A stretch of DNA of 64,000 bases, taken from assembly GCF_003234965.1 (NCBI RefSeq), contig NZ_QKVK01000007.1, forward strand, positions 124,001 to 188,000, read 5' to 3'. The DNA is from Aestuariivirga litoralis (GTDB lineage Bacteria > Pseudomonadota > Alphaproteobacteria > Rhizobiales > Aestuariivirgaceae). Position 1 is the first letter of the stretch. Each line of letters opens with the position of its first letter. The notes below the pieces were generated by a model. That model searched no databases, was not told the origin of the DNA, and saw only the letters and a program-made list of their open reading frames with translations. The position numbers and the translations under genes were made by a program. Positions 2,107-51,588 of the stretch are shown piece after piece.

Positions 2107-3505
2107 CTCCTGGAATGGTCATCTCGACACCGGGAAGCAGGGACACGGCCTTGACGAAGGCATCTCCCCGCACCTCGAAATTGGGATACTGGTCGAAGCT
2201 CGCGCAGGCGGGTGACAGCAGCACCACCGCGCCGGGCTTGCCATCCTCCTGCGCATCGCGCAGTGCGGCAGCGACCGCCTTCTCCAGCGTGCCGCAATCC
2301 GCATGCGGAATGGCTGAGCCAATGGTCGCGGCGAAGTCCCTTGCCGCCTGCCCGATCAGATAGGCCCGCGCCACATTGCCGAAGAGCGGCGTCAATGGTT
2401 CGATGCCACCCGCCTTGGCGATGCCGCCGGCGATCCAGTAGATGTTGGTGAAGGACGAGAGCGCCTTCTCCGCCGCATCGGCATTGGTGGCCTTGGAGTC
2501 GTTGATGAAGGGAATGGCTCCCACCCGCGCCACCTGCTGCATGCGGTGTGCAAGGCCGGGAAAGCTCGTCATCGCAGCGGCCATGGCCCTGGCGTCGACA
2601 CCCAGCGCCGTCGCCGCGCCATAGGCCATGCAGGCATTCTGCCAGTTGTGCCGCCCCTTCAGCGCCGGCATGGCGCGGAGGTCGATTTCGGCCTTCACCA
2701 CACCCGCACGCTTGTCGCGCAGCACGCCGTCATGCGCGGTGATGCCGTCGTCCAGATCCTTCACCACTGACACGCGCCTGACATCGGCACCCGTGACCAC
2801 CACCTGCTCGGCGATTGCCGCGCACCAGTCGTCGTCGACGCCACAGAGTGCCGTGTCGCCCTTGTGCTGGCTGGCGAACATGCGCGCTTTCACCGCGGCA
2901 TAATTCTCCATGCTGCCATGGCGGTCGAGATGGTCCGGCGTGATGTTGGTGAGGATGCCGACCTCGGGGTCGAGCCGCGGCATCAGGTCGATCTGGAAGG
3001 AGGAGAGTTCGAGCACATAGACGCGGCCCTTCACCGGCTGGCGCAGCAGGAACACCGCCTTGCCGATATTGCCGCCCACCTCGACGTCGAGCCCCGCCTG
3101 GCTCAGTACATGGCCCGTCAGCGCGGTCGTGGTCGATTTGCCGTTGGTGCCGGTGATGGCGACGATGCGCGCGCCTGCCGCATCAGCCTCGCGCGCGAAG
3201 ATTTCCGTGTCGCCGATCACCTCGATCCCGGCATGGCGCGCCTTCAGCACGGTCCAGTGCGGCTCGGGGTGGGTGAGCGGCACGCCCGGGCTCAGCACCA
3301 GCGCATCGAGCGTCGCGAAGTCGAGCTGGTGCAGGTTGCTGATCGGCAGGCCCGCGGCCCGGGCCTTCTCGACGGCGGGTGCTGAATCATCCCAGCCATG
3401 CACGGTGGCCCCGCCCAGCTGCAGCGCCTCGATCGTCGCAGTGCCGGAGCGCGCGAGGCCGAAGACGGCGACGGACTTGCCCTTGAATGTGGTGGCTGGG
3501 AACAA
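2084..3505 (-). CDS. murD: MurD, UDP-N-acetylmuramoylalanine--D-glutamate ligase
   Basis: Cytoplasmic ATP-dependent ligase adding D-Glu to UDP-MurNAc-L-Ala. The 473-aa protein has an N-terminal Rossmann-like domain (KGKSVAVFGLARSG), the Mur-ligase P-loop GTNGKST at about residues 119-125, and a C-terminal domain carrying LLSPACASFDQY. The start is a TTG at 3505: a GAGG Shine-Dalgarno lies over the last codons of mraY just before it and no upstream ATG exists in frame before the mraY stop. Only three bases separate the mraY stop from this start. Confidence 0.95.
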   Translation of the reverse strand: MFPATTFKGKSVAVFGLARSGTATIEALQLGGATVHGWDDSAPAVEKARAAGLPISNLHQLDFATLDALVLSPGVPLTHPEPHWTVLKARHAGIEVIGDTEIFAREADAAGARIVAITGTNGKSTTTALTGHVLSQAGLDVEVGGNIGKAVFLLRQPVKGRVYVLELSSFQIDLMPRLDPEVGILTNITPDHLDRHGSMENYAAVKARMFASQHKGDTALCGVDDDWCAAIAEQVVVTGADVRRVSVVKDLDDGITAHDGVLRDKRAGVVKAEIDLRAMPALKGRHNWQNACMAYGAATALGVDARAMAAAMTSFPGLAHRMQQVARVGAIPFINDSKATNADAAEKALSSFTNIYWIAGGIAKAGGIEPLTPLFGNVARAYLIGQAARDFAATIGSAIPHADCGTLEKAVAAALRDAQEDGKPGAVVLLSPACASFDQYPNFEVRGDAFVKAVSLLPGVEMTIPGDAHAART

Positions 3506-3508
3506 GGC

Positions 3509-4597
3509 CTACCTCAGCTTCAGCGTCGAGAGCCCGATGAGGGCCAGCACGATGGCGATGATCCAGAAGCGGATGACGATGGTCGGTTCCTTCCAGCCCT
3601 TCTGCTCGAAATGATGGTGCAGCGGCGCCATGGCGAAGACGCGCTTGCCCGTCATCTTGAACGAGGCGACCTGGATGATGACCGAGAGCGTTTCGAGCAC
3701 GAAGAGCCCGCCGATGATGCCAAGCACGATCTCGTGCTTCGCGGCCACCGCGATGGCACCCAACGCGCCGCCGAGCGAGAGCGACCCGGTGTCGCCCATG
3801 AAGATCATCGCAGGCGGCGCATTGAACCACAGGAAGCCCAACCCTGCCCCCACGATCGCCCCGCAGATGATGGCGAGCTCGCCTGCCCCGCGCACGAAGT
3901 GAAGCTCGAGATAATTCGAGAAGTTATAGTTGCCGACGAGATAGACGATCAGGCCGAGGCTCGCCGCGGCGATCATCACCGGAACGATTGCGAGACCGTC
4001 GAGTCCATCCGTCATGTTCACCGCATTGCCAGCCCCCACGACGACGAACATCCCGACGAAGATGAAGAACATGCCGAAGGGAATGAGCAGGTCCTTGAAG
4101 AAGGGCACGGCCAGCGACGTCGACAGCGGCTTGCCGCCGATCCACATGAAGATGCCGACCGCGATGCCGGCGATCACGAATTCCGCCAGCAGGCGCACCT
4201 TGCCGGAGAAGCCCTTGGTCGTCGCCTTGGTGACCTTGAGGTAGTCGTCATAGAAGCCGATGGCGCCGAAGCCCAGCGTGACGAAGAGCACCGCCCAGAC
4301 ATAGAGGTTGCGCAGGTCCGCCCAGAGCAGCGTGCCGACGAAGATGCCCGACAGGATCATCAGCCCGCCCATGGTCGGCGTGCCCTGCTTTTCCACGATG
4401 TGGCGCTGCGGGCCGTCGGAGCGGATGGGCTGGCCCCGGCCCTGCTTCACCTTCAGGAGCGAGATGATGCGCGGCCCGAACAGGAACACGAAGATGAGAG
4501 CCGTGATGATCGCAAGCCCGGTGCGCGATGTCTGGTAGCGGAAGACGTTGAAGGGCGACACCTCATCCGCGAGGCTGCTGAACAGAAGGAATAGCAT
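3509..4597 (-). CDS. mraY: MraY, phospho-N-acetylmuramoyl-pentapeptide transferase
   Basis: Integral membrane enzyme forming lipid I from UDP-MurNAc-pentapeptide and undecaprenyl phosphate. The 362-aa sequence has about ten membrane segments, an early [10 protein letters not shown] stretch, the Asp-rich FYDDYLKV cytoplasmic loop, the [13 protein letters not shown] motif and the APLHHHFE signature near the C-terminus. Its ATG overlaps the murF stop by one base (TGATG). The gene has the family's usual length and there is nothing unusual in it. Confidence 0.97.
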
Positions 4598-6021
4598 CAG
4601 GTCTCCTTGGCAAGCGGCGGATGGGCCGCGCGGATCGCCTCCACCAGCGGCCCCATGCGGCTGCCGAGCGAACCCTTGATCATCACCACATCACCGGGCC
4701 TGAGGCCCTTGAGCAGCTGCTCGCGCAGTCCTTCGGAGTTTTCCGCATAGGCGCCGCGCCGGCTCTCCGCCACGCGCGACCAGAGATTCGCCATGAGAGG
4801 ACCAGCCGCGTATAGGACATCGACCTTGGCGGCGTCCATCGGTTCCAGCAGGCCTGCGTGCAGTTCCGGGCTGTGCTCGCCCAGTTCCAGCATGTCGCCC
4901 AGCACCGCGATGCGGCGGCCACCGCGCGGCGGTTGTGCAGCCCCGAGAAGACCGAGCGCTGCCGCTACGGAAGCCGGGTTGGCGTTGTAGCTTTCATCGA
5001 TCAGCAGCAATTCGCCATCGCCGATCGACAGCCTTTCGCGCACGCCGCGGCCCTTGGCGGGCGCGGCCTTCGCCAGCGCCAGCGCGGCCCGCGCCAGGTC
5101 GGCGCCGGTGAGCTTCGCGGTGGCGAGAACGGCGAGGCTGTTCACCGCCATGTGCTCGCCGGGAAGGCCCAGCCGGTAGGTCACCGTTTCGCCCATCACG
5201 TCGGCGGTGATGCAGCAGCAGTCAGGGAGCAGCGCCACGCGCTCCATGCGCACATCGGCGTTGGGGTGCTTGCCGAAGGAGACGACACTGCGCACGCCGG
5301 CCGCCCAGGCGGCGGCCGCAAGCCGCTCGAAATAGGGGGTGTCGCGGCTGATGACGGCGCTGCCCAGCGGCACGATGCCGGAGAAGATCTCCGCCTTGGC
5401 ATCGGCGATCTCGTCGAGCGAGGCGAAATTGCCAAGGTGGCTCGCGGCGATCGTGGTGATGATCGCCACATGCGGGCGCACCATGGAGACGAGCGGCGTG
5501 ATCTCGCCCGTGTGGTTCATGCCGATCTCGAACACGCCGAAGGCCGCACTCCGCGGCATGCGGGCCAGCGTCAGCGGCACGCCCCAGTGATTGTTGAAGG
5601 AGGCGGCGGAGGCGTGCGTCTCGCCCGAGGCGGAGAGTGCGGTGCGAAGCATTTCCTTGGTCGAGGTCTTGCCCACGCTTCCCGTCACCGCGACAATCTG
5701 CGCCTCGGACCTGGCGCGCGCCGCAAGGCCCATCGCCTCCAGCCCGCGCAGGGGATCATCCTCCACCTCGAGCACGGGGCCTGCTGCCAGCATCTCCGGC
5801 GTCACGCGCGACACCAGGCCAAGGCCGGCGCCGGCCTTCAGCGCGCTGGCGACGAAATCATGCCCGTCATGCTTCTCGCCCTTGATGGCGACGAAGATAT
5901 CGCCCTGCCCCACGGCGCGCGAGTCGATGGTGACGGCGGTGAGCGACTTCGTGACGCTGCCATGCAGCCTGCCGCCGGTGGCGGCAAGCAGTTCGTCAAT
6001 CGTCCACAGTGCCTCAGCCAT
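4597..6021 (-). CDS. murF: MurF, UDP-MurNAc-tripeptide--D-alanyl-D-alanine ligase
   Basis: Adds D-Ala-D-Ala to UDP-MurNAc-tripeptide, the last cytoplasmic step of the stem peptide. The protein (474 aa from the ATG at 6021) carries the Mur-ligase P-loop [10 protein letters not shown], the [11 protein letters not shown] motif and [15 protein letters not shown] at 6030 would add three residues; I prefer the ATG at 6021, which gives [12 protein letters not shown] and overlaps the end of murE by eight bases. The C-terminal domain ends with a [15 protein letters not shown] stretch as usual for MurF. Confidence 0.95.
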
Positions 6022-10538: not shown

Positions 10539-10651
10539 GGCAAGCCTAAATCACGGTGAAAAAGGCGTTAATCGTCAGGCTGACATTGCAATCGGCCTGC
10601 TTAACAATTGGTTTCGATTGCCGCGATTTCGCAGCATTTGGCGGGGGATAA

Positions 10652-11051
10652 TGCCAGCCGGCCTGTAAGCCGGGTTCTGTCCATGCGGATCGCTCCGCAC
10701 TGGATGACCATTCATCTGGAACGCCCGTTGCCGGACGCTTCACGCAACCTACCCGGGCGGCTGGAACGGAAACGTCCCTGGGGGCCGAAACCCCCGCGCC
10801 ACCCCTATTCGGTCTTGCTCCCGGTGGGGTTTGCCATGCCGTCCCCATTGCTGGGGCCGCGGTGCGCTCTTGCCGCACCTTTTCACCCTTGCGTCAGGCC
10901 GAAGCCCGGATCCGCGGTATCATTTCTGTGGCACTGTCCCTGGGGTCGCCCCCGCCGGGCGTTACCCGGCACCGTGTTTCCATGGAGCCCGGACTTTCCT
11001 CCCCCGCACCCTTTCGGGCGTAGCGGCAGCGGTCATCCAGCCAGCTGGCCA
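10652..11051 (-). ncRNA. rnpB: RNase P RNA (rnpB), bacterial class A
   Basis: Catalytic RNA that matures tRNA 5' ends. Read on the minus strand, the region near 11010-10990 contains the conserved GAGGAAAGTCCGGGCTCC block; further on are the ACAGAAA region, the AAGGGTGAAAAGGTGCGG stretch (P7-P10 area), GAGCAAGACCGAATAGGGG (CRIV/P8 region), and the 3' block GACAGAACCCGGCTTA. The 5' arm GCCAGCTGGC (about 11049-11040) pairs with the 3' arm GCCGGCTGGC (about 10662-10653) to form P1, which sets the ends to within a few bases. Length is about 400 nt, usual for alphaproteobacteria. Confidence 0.95.
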
Positions 11052-25300: not shown

Positions 25301-25376
25301 TCATCATGCCCGGGCTTGTCCCGGGCATCCTTTTGGCGGCCAAAAGCGATCGCCGGGACAAGCCCGGCGATGATGA
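25301..25376. repeat. Palindromic double-hairpin element (copy 1)
   Basis: Two adjoining hairpins: GCCCGGG-CTTGT-CCCGGGC (25308-25326) and CGCCGGG-ACAAG-CCCGGCG (25351-25369), flanked by TCATCAT and ATGATGA. The two halves are also inverted copies of each other, so a single large stem could form instead. It lies between ettA and the L,D-transpeptidase-like gene. The preceding bases 25267-25300 hold several long C runs. Confidence 0.85.
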
Positions 25377-28074: not shown

Positions 28075-28458
28075 TCAACCCTGAGGCGGGTTTCCGCGCT
28101 CCGGCAGTTTCCTTGCCACCAGCACCGTCAGCACCGCCTTCAGCAGCAGCACGCCGATCACCGGCACGGCGAGCGTCCAGATGTCGCTTACCTGGAAGGA
28201 GATCGACGACCATAAGATCGCCATCACGATGGCGCCGATCACGTCGAGAACGGCCAGCACGTAGAAGGCCCAGCGCTGCGGCTGCGACCTGCCGAACAGC
28301 GCCATCAGCACCAGTACGTTGAGTGCCGCGATGCCACCGGGAATCAGCGCCAGGGGGGCAGCCCCGCTGTCGGTGAACTCGGCGAAGACCAGCAGCAGGG
28401 CGCAGCCGCCGGCGAACAGCACCACGAGCCCGCAGATGATACCGAGGATGATCTTCAT
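28075..28458 (-). CDS. Small membrane protein, last gene of the radical SAM operon
   Basis: A 127-aa protein with four predicted membrane segments: GIICGLVVLFAGGCALLLVF, LIPGGIAALNVLVLMALF, AFYVLAVLDVIGAIVMAIL and IWTLAVPVIGVLLLKAVL. I do not recognise the family. The ATG at 28458 overlaps the radical SAM stop by four bases, so it is translated together with it. Such tight coupling suggests it acts with the enzyme, perhaps as a membrane partner. Confidence 0.75.
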   Translation of the reverse strand: MKIILGIICGLVVLFAGGCALLLVFAEFTDSGAAPLALIPGGIAALNVLVLMALFGRSQPQRWAFYVLAVLDVIGAIVMAILWSSISFQVSDIWTLAVPVIGVLLLKAVLTVLVARKLPERGNPPQG

Positions 28459-29867
28459 TGCTGCCCCCTGCTCCGCGCCATGCGCGCGCGTGCCGCCTCG
28501 TCGCGGTAGAACATGTTGTAGGTTTCGAACGGGATGATCTGCCCGTTGGGTGTCACGAAATGAATGCAGCTGCGCTTCACCCGGCCCACACAGAAATTGT
28601 GCCGGTCCATGAACTCGACGATGGCGATGCGGAAGATGTTCTCATAACCGAAGCCCTCCGGCACCGGCACCTCCGGCAGGCAGCACAGCAGGGCGTTGAG
28701 CTTCTCCGGATTGTTGCACTCGGCGGTGGAGAGCGAGAAGAAGTTCAGCACCTGGGAATGAAGCTCCGGGTATTTCTCGAAGGTGATGGCATTGGGCAGC
28801 GCCTCCACCAGCATGTCGCGCGGGAAGAAGGAGGTGATGGGCGCGATCTTGCTCCCCTTGCGCAGCGCATAGCCGATGGCGATCGATTCCGGGTTGCACG
28901 GCAGCGGGATGATGTCGCCCGCCCCGAAGGGTGTTCCCGCCTCCACGATGCGGCGGCGGATGTCGGAGAGCACGATGCGGTCGCGGCCCGGGTCGAAACC
29001 CTCGTTGCGGCCTGCATCCTGCACCGGCTGGAAGGTGATGCCGCGCACGCATCGCCACTGCAGCGCGAAGTCGATGATCTCGCCCAGTTCGTCGTCGTTC
29101 TGCCCGGCCTTCACCACCACGACGAGGGTGGTCGAGATGTTCTCCCGTTCCAGCGCCTCCAGTGCCTGGCGGCGGATGCGCGTCAGGTCCGCGCCGCGCA
29201 GGTTCTTCAGCACCGCGGGCCGCAGGGAATCGAACTGCAGGTAGACCTCGAAGCCGGGCTTGAAACCTGCCAGCGCCTTCACGAAGTCCGGCTCCTGGGC
29301 GATGCGGATGCCATTGGTGTTGAGCATGACGTGGCGGATCGGCCGCCGCTTGGCCGCGGCGATGATGTCCAGGATCTGCGGGTGGATCGTCGGTTCCCCG
29401 CCGGAAATCTGCAGGAGGTCCGGCTCGCCCTCGGAGGCCACCAGCGCGTCCATCATGCGTTCGATCTCGGCAAGCGGCCGGTGCGTGGTCTTCGCCGCCG
29501 ATGACGCCGCAAAGCACACCGGGCAGGTCAGGTTGCAGGCCTCGTTCACCTCGATCAGCGCCAGGCAGGAATGCTGCTCGTGGTCGGGGCACAGTCCGCA
29601 GTCATAGGGGCAGCCGTTCTCGGTGCGGGTCTGCGGCTGGAGCGGCCGGTCGCCCGGCTTCAGGTAGTCATGGCACAGCTTGTAATATTGCGCGTCGGTG
29701 GAGACGAGTGCCTTCTGCACGCCATGCTCGCGGCAGCGCTTGAGATAGTAGACGCTGTTGTCCTCGATGATGATCTTGGCTGGCACCAGCGCCATGCAGT
29801 CATCGCACATCGAGGTCGTCTGGCCATAGAAGACATAGGGCGCAACCTTGCGGACCGGCGCGTTCAT
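28455..29867 (-). CDS. Radical SAM enzyme of the COG1964/MJ0619 (tetraether synthase-like) type
   Basis: A 470-aa radical SAM protein. An N-terminal metal-binding part has MCDDC and KRCREHG (residues about 20-50), then an auxiliary-cluster region ENGCPYDCGLCPDHEQHSC (about 84-102), then the radical SAM cluster motif CNLTCPVC (CxxxCxxC, about 112-119), and QISGGEPTIHP for SAM binding. Further cysteines occur in the C-terminal part (LLCCLPEV, NFCVGRVKRSCIH). This order of a Cys-rich N-terminus, CPYDCGLCPxH and CNLxCPxCF matches the COG1964 group that includes archaeal MJ0619 and Tes, which joins lipid tails. Its own substrate is unknown. Both ends overlap neighbours by four bases. Confidence 0.88.
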   Translation of the reverse strand: MNAPVRKVAPYVFYGQTTSMCDDCMALVPAKIIIEDNSVYYLKRCREHGVQKALVSTDAQYYKLCHDYLKPGDRPLQPQTRTENGCPYDCGLCPDHEQHSCLALIEVNEACNLTCPVCFAASSAAKTTHRPLAEIERMMDALVASEGEPDLLQISGGEPTIHPQILDIIAAAKRRPIRHVMLNTNGIRIAQEPDFVKALAGFKPGFEVYLQFDSLRPAVLKNLRGADLTRIRRQALEALERENISTTLVVVVKAGQNDDELGEIIDFALQWRCVRGITFQPVQDAGRNEGFDPGRDRIVLSDIRRRIVEAGTPFGAGDIIPLPCNPESIAIGYALRKGSKIAPITSFFPRDMLVEALPNAITFEKYPELHSQVLNFFSLSTAECNNPEKLNALLCCLPEVPVPEGFGYENIFRIAIVEFMDRHNFCVGRVKRSCIHFVTPNGQIIPFETYNMFYRDEAARARMARSRGQQ

Positions 29868-30316
29868 GCCGTGCCCCTGCCCGGGCCGTTGCGGGTTGCA
29901 AAGAGGTCAGCCGTCCAGTCCGCCCCCATCACCGCCATCACCGCCGTGGCAAGGCCCAGCACCGAGAAGAAGCCGATGGGCGGCACATGCAGCCCGACGA
30001 AGCCCACGACCCCCGCCGACCACAGCCCAGCCAGCGCCGTCACCACGCGCAGGAACACGTGCTGCTCGTCGCGCTTGCCCTCGCGCGCCTGTTCCACCCG
30101 GTCGGCGAAGACCACGGTGAGCAGCCCCGAGAGGAAGGGCGGAAAGGCGAAGATGATGATCAGGATCCACTTGATGACGGTGAAGAAGCCCGGGTTCTCC
30201 ATCACGATCCAGCCGAAGATGAATTCCCACGCCGCATAGATCGCCGTGCCCACCGCCAGGGCACCCGCCACCTGCAGCCAGCCGATCACGCGGCACCAGA
30301 AATCGGCCCGGCTCAT
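29864..30316 (-). CDS. Membrane protein of the radical SAM operon
   Basis: A 150-aa protein, not recognised, with four membrane segments (starting WCRVIGWLQVAGALAVGTAI, then FTVIKWILIIIFAFPPFLSGL, then two in the C-terminal half). Between segments two and three is a charged loop ADRVEQAREGKRDEQHVF. The ATG at 30316 overlaps the stop of the Lgt-like gene and its stop overlaps the start of the radical SAM gene, each by four bases. A partner or scaffold role in the same membrane process is inferred from this. Confidence 0.78.
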   Translation of the reverse strand: MSRADFWCRVIGWLQVAGALAVGTAIYAAWEFIFGWIVMENPGFFTVIKWILIIIFAFPPFLSGLLTVVFADRVEQAREGKRDEQHVFLRVVTALAGLWSAGVVGFVGLHVPPIGFFSVLGLATAVMAVMGADWTADLFATRNGPGRGTA

Positions 30317-31002
30317 GACGCCTTCCCCCTCGCCATCATGGCCAGCGAGTAAATCACGAGTCCGGCGCAAATCAAATGGAACAGATTGAATGTTCCCACA
30401 ACGCTGCCATAGGGCTTGAGGAATTCCCACAGGAAGCGCTGGCCCGCATAGACCAGCACGAGGAGGTAGAAGCCGTTCTGCATGAAAAAGCCGTTGCGCC
30501 GCCCGATCAGCGTCAGCGCAACCGCCAGGAACACCGCCATGGTCAGGGACTCATAGAGCTGCACGGGGTGGCGCGCGATGCCGTCGCCGAAGTCATGGCC
30601 CCAGGGCAGACCTGTCGGCGTTCCATAGGTGTCGTCGCCGAGCCCCGCGAGGAAACAGCCCCAGCGCCCGACCACCACGCTGGTCGCGAAGGCCGGCACG
30701 AAGATCAGCCCCGTCGAACCCGAAATGCCACGCCAGCGCTTGAAGATCTCGACCGCGATGATCGCCCCCGCCAGTGCTCCCACGATGGAGCGGCCGATGC
30801 CCGGCGCGCCGGAGAGCCAGAGGTTGAGCGTCCCCGCCCCGAAGCCCCCGATCGCCGCGCCCATGACCAGTGCAAGGCCATAGAGCGGCCCGGCGGAATC
30901 GATCTTCCGCGCGGCATCTCTCAGCCGCCAGTGATAGACGAACAGGGTCATGCCCAGCGCGGCACAGGCGGCAAGTAGGTCGAATACGGTGTGGATCAGC
31001 AC
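30313..31002 (-). CDS. Lgt-like (prolipoprotein diacylglyceryl transferase family) membrane protein
   Basis: A 229-aa polytopic protein resembling Lgt (PF01790 type), the enzyme that moves diacylglycerol from phosphatidylglycerol to prolipoproteins. Family features are VVVGRWGCFLAGLGDD (the GRxxNF-like Arg motif) and the late ARHPVQLYES motif, with about seven membrane segments. It is shorter than typical Lgt and the usual HGG motif with its essential His is not evident (the aligned stretch reads AIGGFGAG). It may be a specialised lipid-transfer paralog rather than the housekeeping Lgt. It is the first gene of the four-gene operon. Confidence 0.8.
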   Translation of the reverse strand: MLIHTVFDLLAACAALGMTLFVYHWRLRDAARKIDSAGPLYGLALVMGAAIGGFGAGTLNLWLSGAPGIGRSIVGALAGAIIAVEIFKRWRGISGSTGLIFVPAFATSVVVGRWGCFLAGLGDDTYGTPTGLPWGHDFGDGIARHPVQLYESLTMAVFLAVALTLIGRRNGFFMQNGFYLLVLVYAGQRFLWEFLKPYGSVVGTFNLFHLICAGLVIYSLAMMARGKAS

Positions 31003-31070: not shown

Positions 31071-31148
31071 CATCATCGCCGGACTTGTTCCGGCGACCCT
31101 TTTCGCCAACCACAAAGGGTGCCCGGGACGAGCCCGGGCATGATGATG
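31071..31148. repeat. Palindromic double-hairpin element (copy 3)
   Basis: CATCATCGCCGG...CCGGCGACC followed by GGGTGCCCGGGACGAGCCCG and closing GGCATGATGATG: the same two hairpins as copy 1 but in the opposite order. It lies between the Lgt-like operon and the small heme-copper-like gene, both read leftwards. Confidence 0.85.
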
Positions 31149-31171: not shown

Positions 31172-31549
31172 TCACGCCGCCTTCAGCACCGGCATGGCAT
31201 TCCACACGAAGATCAGCATGCCGACGAGGAATCCGACGGATGCCAGCGCCGTGACGGGCTCGATCGCCTCGTTGCCCTGCAGCAGGAAGAACAGCGACAC
31301 CACCAGCACCACGCCGCTCACCCCCTGCACCCAGAAATGCGCCCGCGCCAGCGGCCTTGCGCCAATCTCCGGGAACAGGTGGTAGAAGAAGGCGAAGACG
31401 GAGGACATCAGCCAGCCCGCCACCATGATGTGGGCATGGGTCGGCATCTGGCCGTGGTCGTGGCTCGCCGCCATGTAGATGCCGAGGCACATGCCCGCCA
31501 CCGCGTAACACAAGGCAAGAATGAAAAACGTTCGCGCCGCACCCTTCAT
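31172..31549 (-). CDS. Small four-helix membrane protein resembling part of heme-copper oxidase subunit I
   Basis: A 125-aa protein with four membrane segments. MPTHAHIMVAGWLMSSVFAF and FYHLFPE carry conserved histidines at the place and spacing seen in the short subunit I-like proteins often annotated as cytochrome c oxidase-like; the HAHIMVAGW segment resembles a heme-ligand helix. A function in heme binding or in nitric oxide or oxygen chemistry is possible but unproven. The ATG at 31549 is preferred over one 13 codons upstream. A near-perfect palindrome lies about 30 bp upstream. Confidence 0.7.
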   Translation of the reverse strand: MKGAARTFFILALCYAVAGMCLGIYMAASHDHGQMPTHAHIMVAGWLMSSVFAFFYHLFPEIGARPLARAHFWVQGVSGVVLVVSLFFLLQGNEAIEPVTALASVGFLVGMLIFVWNAMPVLKAA

Positions 31550-31579
31550 GATGCAGTCCCTCCCCAAGCCAGCCATCCC

Positions 31580-31599
31580 CTGGAACATGCATATTCCAG
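31580..31599. promoter_or_regulatory. Near-perfect palindrome upstream of the small heme-copper-like gene
   Basis: Arms CTGGAA and TTCCAG with the centre CATGCATA; 18 of 20 positions are symmetric. It lies 31-50 bp before the ATG at 31549 on the minus strand, a good position for an operator. It resembles sites of Rrf2-type regulators such as NsrR only in part, so the regulator is left open. Confidence 0.5.
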
Positions 31600-37840: not shown

Positions 37841-37918
37841 CATCATCGCCGGGCTTGACCCGGCGATCCTTTCTCGCGACCGCCGCAAAGGATGCCCGGG
37901 TCAAGCCCGGGCATGACG
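37841..37918. repeat. Palindromic double-hairpin element (copy 4)
   Basis: CATCATCGCCGGGCTTGACC-CGGCGATCC, spacer TTTCTCGCGACCGCCGCAAA, then GGATGCCCGGGTCAAGCCCG and GGCATGACGA. It fills most of the divergent space between maeB and the gene at 37996. Confidence 0.85.
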
Positions 37919-51508: not shown

Positions 51509-51588
51509 TCATCATCGCCGGGCTTGTCCCGGCGATCCTTTGCGCTGGCATCGGAAAAGGATGCCCGGGTCAAGCCCGGGCATGATGA
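51509..51588. repeat. Palindromic double-hairpin element (copy 5), ahead of the alpha-2-macroglobulin gene
   Basis: TCATCATCGCCGGGCTTGTC-CCGGCGATCC, a spacer, then GGATGCCCGGGTCAAGCCCG and GGCATGATGA, the same unit as copy 4. An open frame from 51434 runs through it and into the next gene, but the translation of the element (SSSPGLSRRSF and DARVKPGHDER) is what such elements give when read through, so I do not count it as coding. Confidence 0.85.

Follow-up and report, generated by a model that had tools for sequence, protein, structure and literature searches.

We analysed a gene cluster in the alphaproteobacterium Aestuariivirga litoralis (Rhizobiales) that combines an Lgt-family membrane protein, a radical S-adenosylmethionine (SAM) enzyme, hereafter rSAM, and small membrane proteins. 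The cluster lies in a stretch of 64,000 nucleotides (assembly GCF_003234965.1, contig NZ_QKVK01000007.1, positions 124,001 to 188,000), here called the window, and is transcribed in the order Lgt-like gene, TM1, rSAM gene, TM2:

30313..31002, minus strand: Lgt-family membrane protein, 229 amino acids, GTG start, PF01790
29864..30316, minus strand: TM1, hydrophobic protein, 150 amino acids, ATG start, no family assignment
28455..29867, minus strand: rSAM enzyme, 470 amino acids, a relative of Tes and TrsS
28075..28458, minus strand: TM2, GxC membrane protein, 127 amino acids, motif LFAGGC, candidate substrate

The coordinates confirm four genes in one direction with four-base overlaps at three junctions, as a first-pass annotation of this DNA had described, and each overlap reads ATGA (3/3). 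In Pfam the rSAM matched PF04055 (82.4 bits) and PF23545 (60.1 bits) and the Lgt-like protein matched PF01790 (65.6 bits, cut-off 24.9); TM1 and TM2 gave no match above cut-off in the same scan. Both small genes look coding, because more than half of the substitutions among four close relatives, counted over all pairs, fall at codon position 3 (positions 1/2/3: TM2 101/79/228, TM1 144/64/322). A promoter scan found zero sites (0.3 in shuffles), and the single terminator-like site lay within the Lgt-like gene (2.4 in shuffles). Some 14 kb past the window the genome carries two genes for a photosynthetic reaction centre, and the label phototrophic, given to the host from the sequence alone, therefore holds.

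The rSAM is kin to the enzyme Tes (GDGT-MAS, MJ0619), as first proposed: its closest solved relative is Tes (PDB 7tol, E 4.6e-62), with homology over the N-terminal two thirds and a C-terminal part. The N-terminal CxxC and the motifs CPYDCGLCPDH and CNLTCPVCF, on which that proposal was built, are all present. A rubredoxin site with spacing exactly as in Tes (C21x2C24x20C45x2H48), the N-cluster (C86x3C90x2C93x2H96) and the SAM cluster (C111x3C115x2C118) are kept, and these ligands are invariant in the 85 rows of our 104-row rSAM alignment that come from loci with a long Lgt row. Membership of Tes was not borne out. The protein scored 285.4 bits on the Tes model (NCBIfam NF045702) against an equivalog cut-off of 450, which 0/398 sampled genomes of the phylum passed, and the Tes model gave no hit in the Caulobacter vibrioides control genome; TrsS (NF045646) was the best-scoring NCBIfam model (301.4 bits, residues 16-454), yet its equivalog cut-off of 490 was not reached either, and we rejected membership of both families. 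A TrsS above the cut-off elsewhere in the same order (588.6 bits) had no Lgt-like or GxC hit within 13 kb, and three distant Lgt-linked rSAM relatives scored 245-328 on the TrsS model. Unlike Tes, the rSAM here is bacterial, is tied to Lgt-like and GxC genes, and differs in its C-terminal cluster region, where Tes M439 and C470 correspond to V417 and E448 (Glu/Asp in the family); C324, C395, C396 and C434 are invariant and could hold a differently placed cluster. In a tree of 57 rows the 46 Lgt-linked rows form one side of a branch (support 94/80, slightly below the starred level). This grouping is weak evidence, because the program warns of long branches; the single archaeal Tes entered as two joined pieces.

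The Lgt-like protein belongs to the Lgt family, as the first-pass annotation supposed, and falls short of functional Lgt by the curated standard: it scored 26.2 bits on TIGR00544, whose equivalog cut-off is 118.9, and we rejected that assignment. Among 41 rows of the family (alignment A1), 30 match TIGR00544 at E<=0.001 (best 1e-9). Lgt of E. coli modifies a cysteine on the outward side of the membrane with phosphatidylglycerol as donor, and its H103 and R246 variants, R246K included, fail to complement, while N146A is inactive (PMC4728403, PMC8689077). Five E. coli residues, R143, E202, Y235, R239 and E243, have equivalents here (R113, E151, Y185, R189 and E193), and those of R143, Y235 and R239, which E. 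coli Lgt needs, are present in 41/41 rows; the donor-lipid residues are mostly kept, a point in favour of the lipidation reading given below. In contrast, the HGGL motif is gone, with V74 at the unconserved position of H103, N146 is replaced by C116 (codon 30657-30655; Cys in 41/41 rows) and R246 by K196 (Lys in 41/41 rows). The invariant cysteine at the place of N146 is an obvious candidate for an altered mechanism. The same genome has a separate canonical Lgt with HGG and GRLANF.

We searched 297 sampled genomes of the order for both genes. The rSAM matched at 1e-40 in 26 of them: 13 at 63-100% identity over near-full length, one at 39% over full length, and another 12 whose matches cover two thirds of the protein from its N terminus (36-39%). 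A profile of the Lgt-like protein scored <=1.9e-91 in exactly the 13 genomes with a close rSAM, the next best hit being 1.5e-14. The two genes therefore stay together in relatives, and the separation of genes that the first-pass annotation had named as refuting its operon did not occur; its four-gene set as a conserved unit was nevertheless rejected. Matches to TM1 (tblastn) were confined to 8/108 loci of near kin, including the window's own and one genome counted twice, and TM1 is a local extra. Direct searches with TM2 found 12/108 loci, all near kin of the window; TM2 is one member of a broader GxC family among small membrane proteins, a third part whose role had been missed when TM1 and TM2 were taken as two membrane partners. 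At E<=4.3e-6 a GxC profile (described below) matched in 9/13 genomes with the rSAM-Lgt pair and 0/284 others (Fisher 1.6e-14), three of the nine (G036, G133 and G208) having lent sequences to the profile; at 1e-3 it matched in 11/13.

Together with 80 loci kept of 565, the 13 genomes gave 93 rSAM+Lgt loci, in all of which the Lgt-like gene lies on the strand of the rSAM gene within 903 bases (upstream in 88, downstream in 5). The sequences show that the conserved object consists of three parts, the Lgt-family protein, the rSAM and the GxC small proteins, which stay together despite reordering of the genes, and these almost certainly form one functional module.

The small hydrophobic proteins beside the rSAM vary by taxon (20-47% identity to the first row of alignment A3), and have in common the pattern hydrophobic-[SCA]-G-[GL]-C-[ST], often with GG[VIL]P in a second helix. 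In TM2 the motif is LFAGGC, with Cys19 (codon 28404-28402) in the first hydrophobic helix. The strict pattern was written after examples had been seen, and controls therefore matter: it occurred in 45/77 sense stretches just 3' of the rSAM gene (77 of the 80 loci being long enough), and was absent from all 11 control sets (antisense 0/77; other distances and strands 0/56-67 each). A profile built from 75 pattern-chosen proteins matched 86/93 rSAM+Lgt loci and 0/13 rSAM loci without an Lgt hit. Fifty-one of the 86 lent it a sequence; among the 42 non-lending loci, 35 matched. When loci were clustered at 95% rSAM identity (whole-sequence E<=0.1), 75/80 clusters had a match, and the motif was present in three of the five that did not (L036, L049 and L042). 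Where hits cover the motif column, the cysteine is present in 74/74 training sequences (by construction), in 15/15 pattern-chosen but untrained ones and in 48/52 that are neither; three more hits do not cover it. TM2 is the best profile match in its own whole genome (1.5e-4; runner-up 0.3). We rejected a chance origin of the motif on the 11 control sets, the loci outside training and the genome-wide co-occurrence.

Cysteine-bearing hits number one at 48 of the 93 loci, two at 26, three at 11, four at one and none at seven. Two genomes have an extra copy elsewhere, with Cys in G036 and Ser in G113, and at two loci (L097, 7631-8119; L100, 7726-8226) a paralogue has Val at the cysteine position while neighbouring copies keep Cys. 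The members tested are without a Pfam or NCBIfam model: Pfam gave nothing above cut-off for ten GxC proteins, the window's TM2 and three from L123 and L161, and NCBIfam gave five scattered single-member hits for 33 proteins scanned (best E 0.0025). In 67 non-redundant GxC proteins the cysteine lies in a hydrophobic stretch that spans about -19 to +9 relative to it, and Lys plus Arg average 0.99 in the N-terminal flank, 0.60 in the loop and 2.70 in the C-terminal tail, against 0.28, 1.60 and 1.21 for Asp plus Glu (loop values from the 42 proteins with a recognisable loop). Since flank and tail are basic and the loop acidic, most GxC proteins probably have both ends in the cytoplasm and the cysteine near the periplasmic face.

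Gene order differs between lineages. Lgt-rSAM-GxC is the order at most alphaproteobacterial loci; rSAM-GxC(-GxC)-Lgt is found in metagenome-assembled genomes labelled Planctomycetota (L042-L046), in which binning errors are possible. Nine additional Lgt+rSAM loci from Pseudomonadota and Bacteroidota were obtained after the profile had been made (part of the further loci and REARRANGEMENT); L126, L130 and L131 repeat genomes already in our set and were left out of this count. Six of the nine (L123, L124, L125, L127, L158 and L159) have a profile match at <=1.3e-5, each with G-x-C. L123, from another class of Pseudomonadota, has overlapping genes in the order GxC-Lgt-x-rSAM, where x is an apparent repeat lipoprotein; this gene (4835-5653) encodes 272 amino acids with a lipoprotein-like start, its frames overlap those of the Lgt-like and rSAM genes on either side, and its repeats were found by reading. 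A Persicobacter plasmid (Bacteroidota) carries overlapping Lgt-like and rSAM frames and, after them, a 59-amino-acid frame with GTGICG near its end. At L096 and L105 the GxC hits lie upstream on the opposite strand.

L161, whose rSAM is 30% identical, has the order rSAM-GxC-GxC-Lgt-ICMT; its sister L162 also has two small proteins, but the cysteine is missing from one of them. In this alphaproteobacterial family of small genomes (L161, 3935-7466; L162, 7094-10752) rSAM, small proteins, Lgt-like protein and ICMT-family methyltransferase form one run of genes; the Pfam match to ICMT was run on L161. That a cysteine-linked methyltransferase adjoins a cysteine module is suggestive. Two Actinomycetota have an rSAM 29-30% identical to that of the window. 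The Mycobacterium branderi annotation lists an Lgt-family protein, then two small hypothetical proteins and then the rSAM; the small proteins end, but for a few residues, in SGGLCTGLNP and TVGVCTGLNP. The Lgt-family protein reads RSILGG and GRLGC, so that the His is missing and a Cys stands at the place of N146. In Nonomuraea, whose stretch carries no annotation, a proline-rich membrane frame ending SAGICTGINP precedes those of the Lgt-like protein and the rSAM. The small proteins of neither are scored by the GxC profile; on our reading of the basic patch before the last helix, their cysteines would face outward. These two plasmid records (L174, 2762-5955; L173, about 2509-5892) thus hold Lgt-family, small membrane and rSAM genes, with small proteins that start proline-rich and end G-x-C-T-G-x-N-P, and may represent the same module in a third architecture.

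On three plasmids, what follows the TrsS-like gene is a methyltransferase gene and not Lgt-like and GxC genes. Two of these plasmids are haloarchaeal (L165, L166); there the methyltransferase gene comes directly after the Tes-type rSAM gene, which in L166 scores 337 bits on TrsS and 284 on Tes, both under cut-off; haloarchaeal 'Tes homologues' may thus be TrsS-like.

The module comprises an Lgt-family enzyme, a Tes/TrsS-related rSAM and one to four GxC small membrane proteins, which we suggest are the substrates. The GxC protein fits a substrate better than a subunit because of the depth of its conserved cysteine, its partner enzymes and its occurrence in one to four divergent copies. The cysteine, about 19 residues into the first helix, would lie near the periplasmic face at the depth of the Lgt active site. 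The Lgt-like enzyme would place a glycerolipid, or another lipid, on it with the signal peptide uncleaved, possibly using its own invariant cysteine in the transfer. In a second step the rSAM would couple the hydrocarbon chain or add a functional group to it, and the product would be a membrane hairpin tethered to lipid. Lipid attachment and radical chain chemistry are favoured because Lgt uses an outer-face cysteine and phosphatidylglycerol, and Tes uses alkyl chains, which it draws into a hydrophobic tunnel (PMC9433317). We advance this sequence of lipidation by the Lgt-like enzyme and alteration of the chain by the rSAM tentatively, as a reading that may well be right and falls short of an even chance. 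In wider terms, we infer that the pair modifies the GxC cysteine, by lipidation or in some other way. Attachment of a lipid to a protein, one of two guesses in the first-pass annotation, would seem better grounded than before, because a conserved-cysteine protein belongs to the set.

Several observations weigh against this reading. Ordinary Lgt chemistry appears doubtful, because H103, N146 and R246, all needed in E. coli, are not kept. The rSAM should be cytoplasmic and the cysteine near the periplasmic face, which makes joint action on one substrate hard to explain. Nor is the GxC motif a lipobox. A lipobox reads [LVI]-[ASTVI]-[GAS]-C and is followed by a non-hydrophobic mature chain. GxC proteins resemble lipobox lipoproteins in that the cysteine of an N-terminal helix lies close to the outer face, in most cases with S/T/G/A as the next residue; they differ in that Leu is missing at -3 (S/C/A in 51/67, with G at -2 in all 67 by selection of the set), G or L precedes the cysteine, the hydrophobic helix continues past it, and no sign of signal-peptide cleavage is seen. 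The motif itself also varies: 14 profile hits have L instead of G at -2, and the cysteine is missing in one paralogue each of L097, L100 and L162 and replaced by Ser in the G113 copy. The profile misses or barely scores L161 (0.012), L163 (0.021), L162 (none), L173 and L174, where the motif was found by reading alone. A GxC protein was not seen in two of the 80 clusters, L041, whose contig ends 970 bases on, and L092. Finally, at 1e-3 the profile also matched in 4/284 genomes without the pair, with at most 18 candidates scored per genome.

The foremost alternative is a tail-coupling complex, the other guess of the first-pass annotation: the rSAM would make membrane-spanning lipids by linking phospholipid acyl tails, with the Lgt-like protein in charge of the glycerolipid and the GxC proteins serving as accessory subunits. 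No solved protein is closer to the rSAM than Tes, whose lipid pocket accepts bacterial phospholipids (PMC9433317), and Zeng et al., who counted 456 bacterial Tes homologues, various Proteobacteria included, proposed such homologues for branched glycerol dialkyl glycerol tetraethers (brGDGTs; PMC8941075). The rSAM nonetheless falls under the Tes cut-off and replaces the C-terminal cluster residues M439 and C470, with other invariant cysteines instead, though M439 is dispensable in Tes itself (PMC9433317); one to four divergent copies are not obviously required of subunits; and homologues in bacteria, although taken as possible signs of branched-tetraether production, are called unconfirmed in role (PMC8941075, PMC11868695). 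We regard tail coupling as rather unlikely. Bacterial homologues are also noted in organisms not known for such chains (PMC9433317). Also unlikely is a bolder form of the lipidation reading, in which the Lgt-fold enzyme, with its cysteine where asparagine is usual, links a glycerolipid to the intramembrane cysteine of the uncleaved hairpin and the Tes-like rSAM makes a carbon-carbon bond at the lipid tail, to a second lipid or to the hairpin protein itself, giving a covalent membrane-spanning protein-lipid staple.

Maturation like that of ribosomally synthesised and post-translationally modified peptides (RiPPs) would have the rSAM cross-link the GxC cysteine within the peptide itself, for instance by a thioether, with the Lgt-like protein as a membrane platform presenting the helix. 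It would suit the small size and divergence of the proteins, their several copies at some loci, their single conserved motif and their place next to an rSAM, as well as the missing His103 of Lgt, but the motif lies within a membrane helix, the Lgt fold retains donor-lipid residues, and beyond the trio no gene cluster occurs in more than 21/80 loci (the clusters are unannotated, and no search for proteases or exporters was made); we consider it quite unlikely. A redox or stress sensor, built on a reversible disulfide between the GxC cysteine and the invariant one in the Lgt-like protein, with the rSAM in some unrelated cofactor role, is highly improbable, for although both membrane parts have a conserved cysteine and one TrsS-like relative adjoins disulfide oxidoreductase and CcdA genes, no additional gene is widely common to the loci (clusters unannotated) and the strict pairing with the rSAM is left unexplained.

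If the lipidation reading is true, the module would provide a second route of lipids onto bacterial membrane proteins beside the lipobox pathway. The module also sets apart a coherent bacterial branch of Tes relatives with partners of its own, which is not to be counted as evidence of tetraethers without lipid data, and it offers the first testable substrate candidates for this branch, small enough for intact mass spectrometry; isolates named as Caulobacter, Phenylobacterium and Reyranella have loci with GxC hits. In the open-access literature, the scope of our search (subscription papers and preprints lay outside it), we found an rSAM-Lgt pair mentioned once and in passing: a 3.5-kb stretch with radical SAM and prolipoprotein diacylglyceryl transferase genes, of no stated function, lost in one of four Pseudarthrobacter single-cell genomes (PMC12010503). 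Its arrangement is like that of two other Actinomycetota records, and it is a possible instance of our module, though no small proteins are named there. The passages of PMC8939145, PMC7641849 and PMC3877243 that came up in the search describe no such pair, although these papers contain both terms, and TrsS appears in a table of PMC13188914.

Two further genes were considered as parts of the module and dropped as weak or restricted to near kin: TerC (15/108 loci) and a small COX1-like gene (5/108 loci). The latter, a 138-amino-acid membrane protein in the window (31172-31588, minus strand) whose COX1 match of 26.7 bits stays under the cut-off of 34.8, is found in near kin alone, in most of them directly upstream of the Lgt-like gene. 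ARAGORN found zero tRNA genes in the window, and a bacterial RNase P class A RNA lies at 10650-11048 (minus strand, 294 bits). A repeat scan found a 17-bp interspersed repeat near AACAAGTCCGGCGATGA in four copies against 0.16 expected, one of them in the intergenic space that precedes the Lgt-like gene:

31073-31089: 17-bp repeat copy
25357-25373: 17-bp repeat copy
37843-37859: 17-bp repeat copy
51512-51528: 17-bp repeat copy

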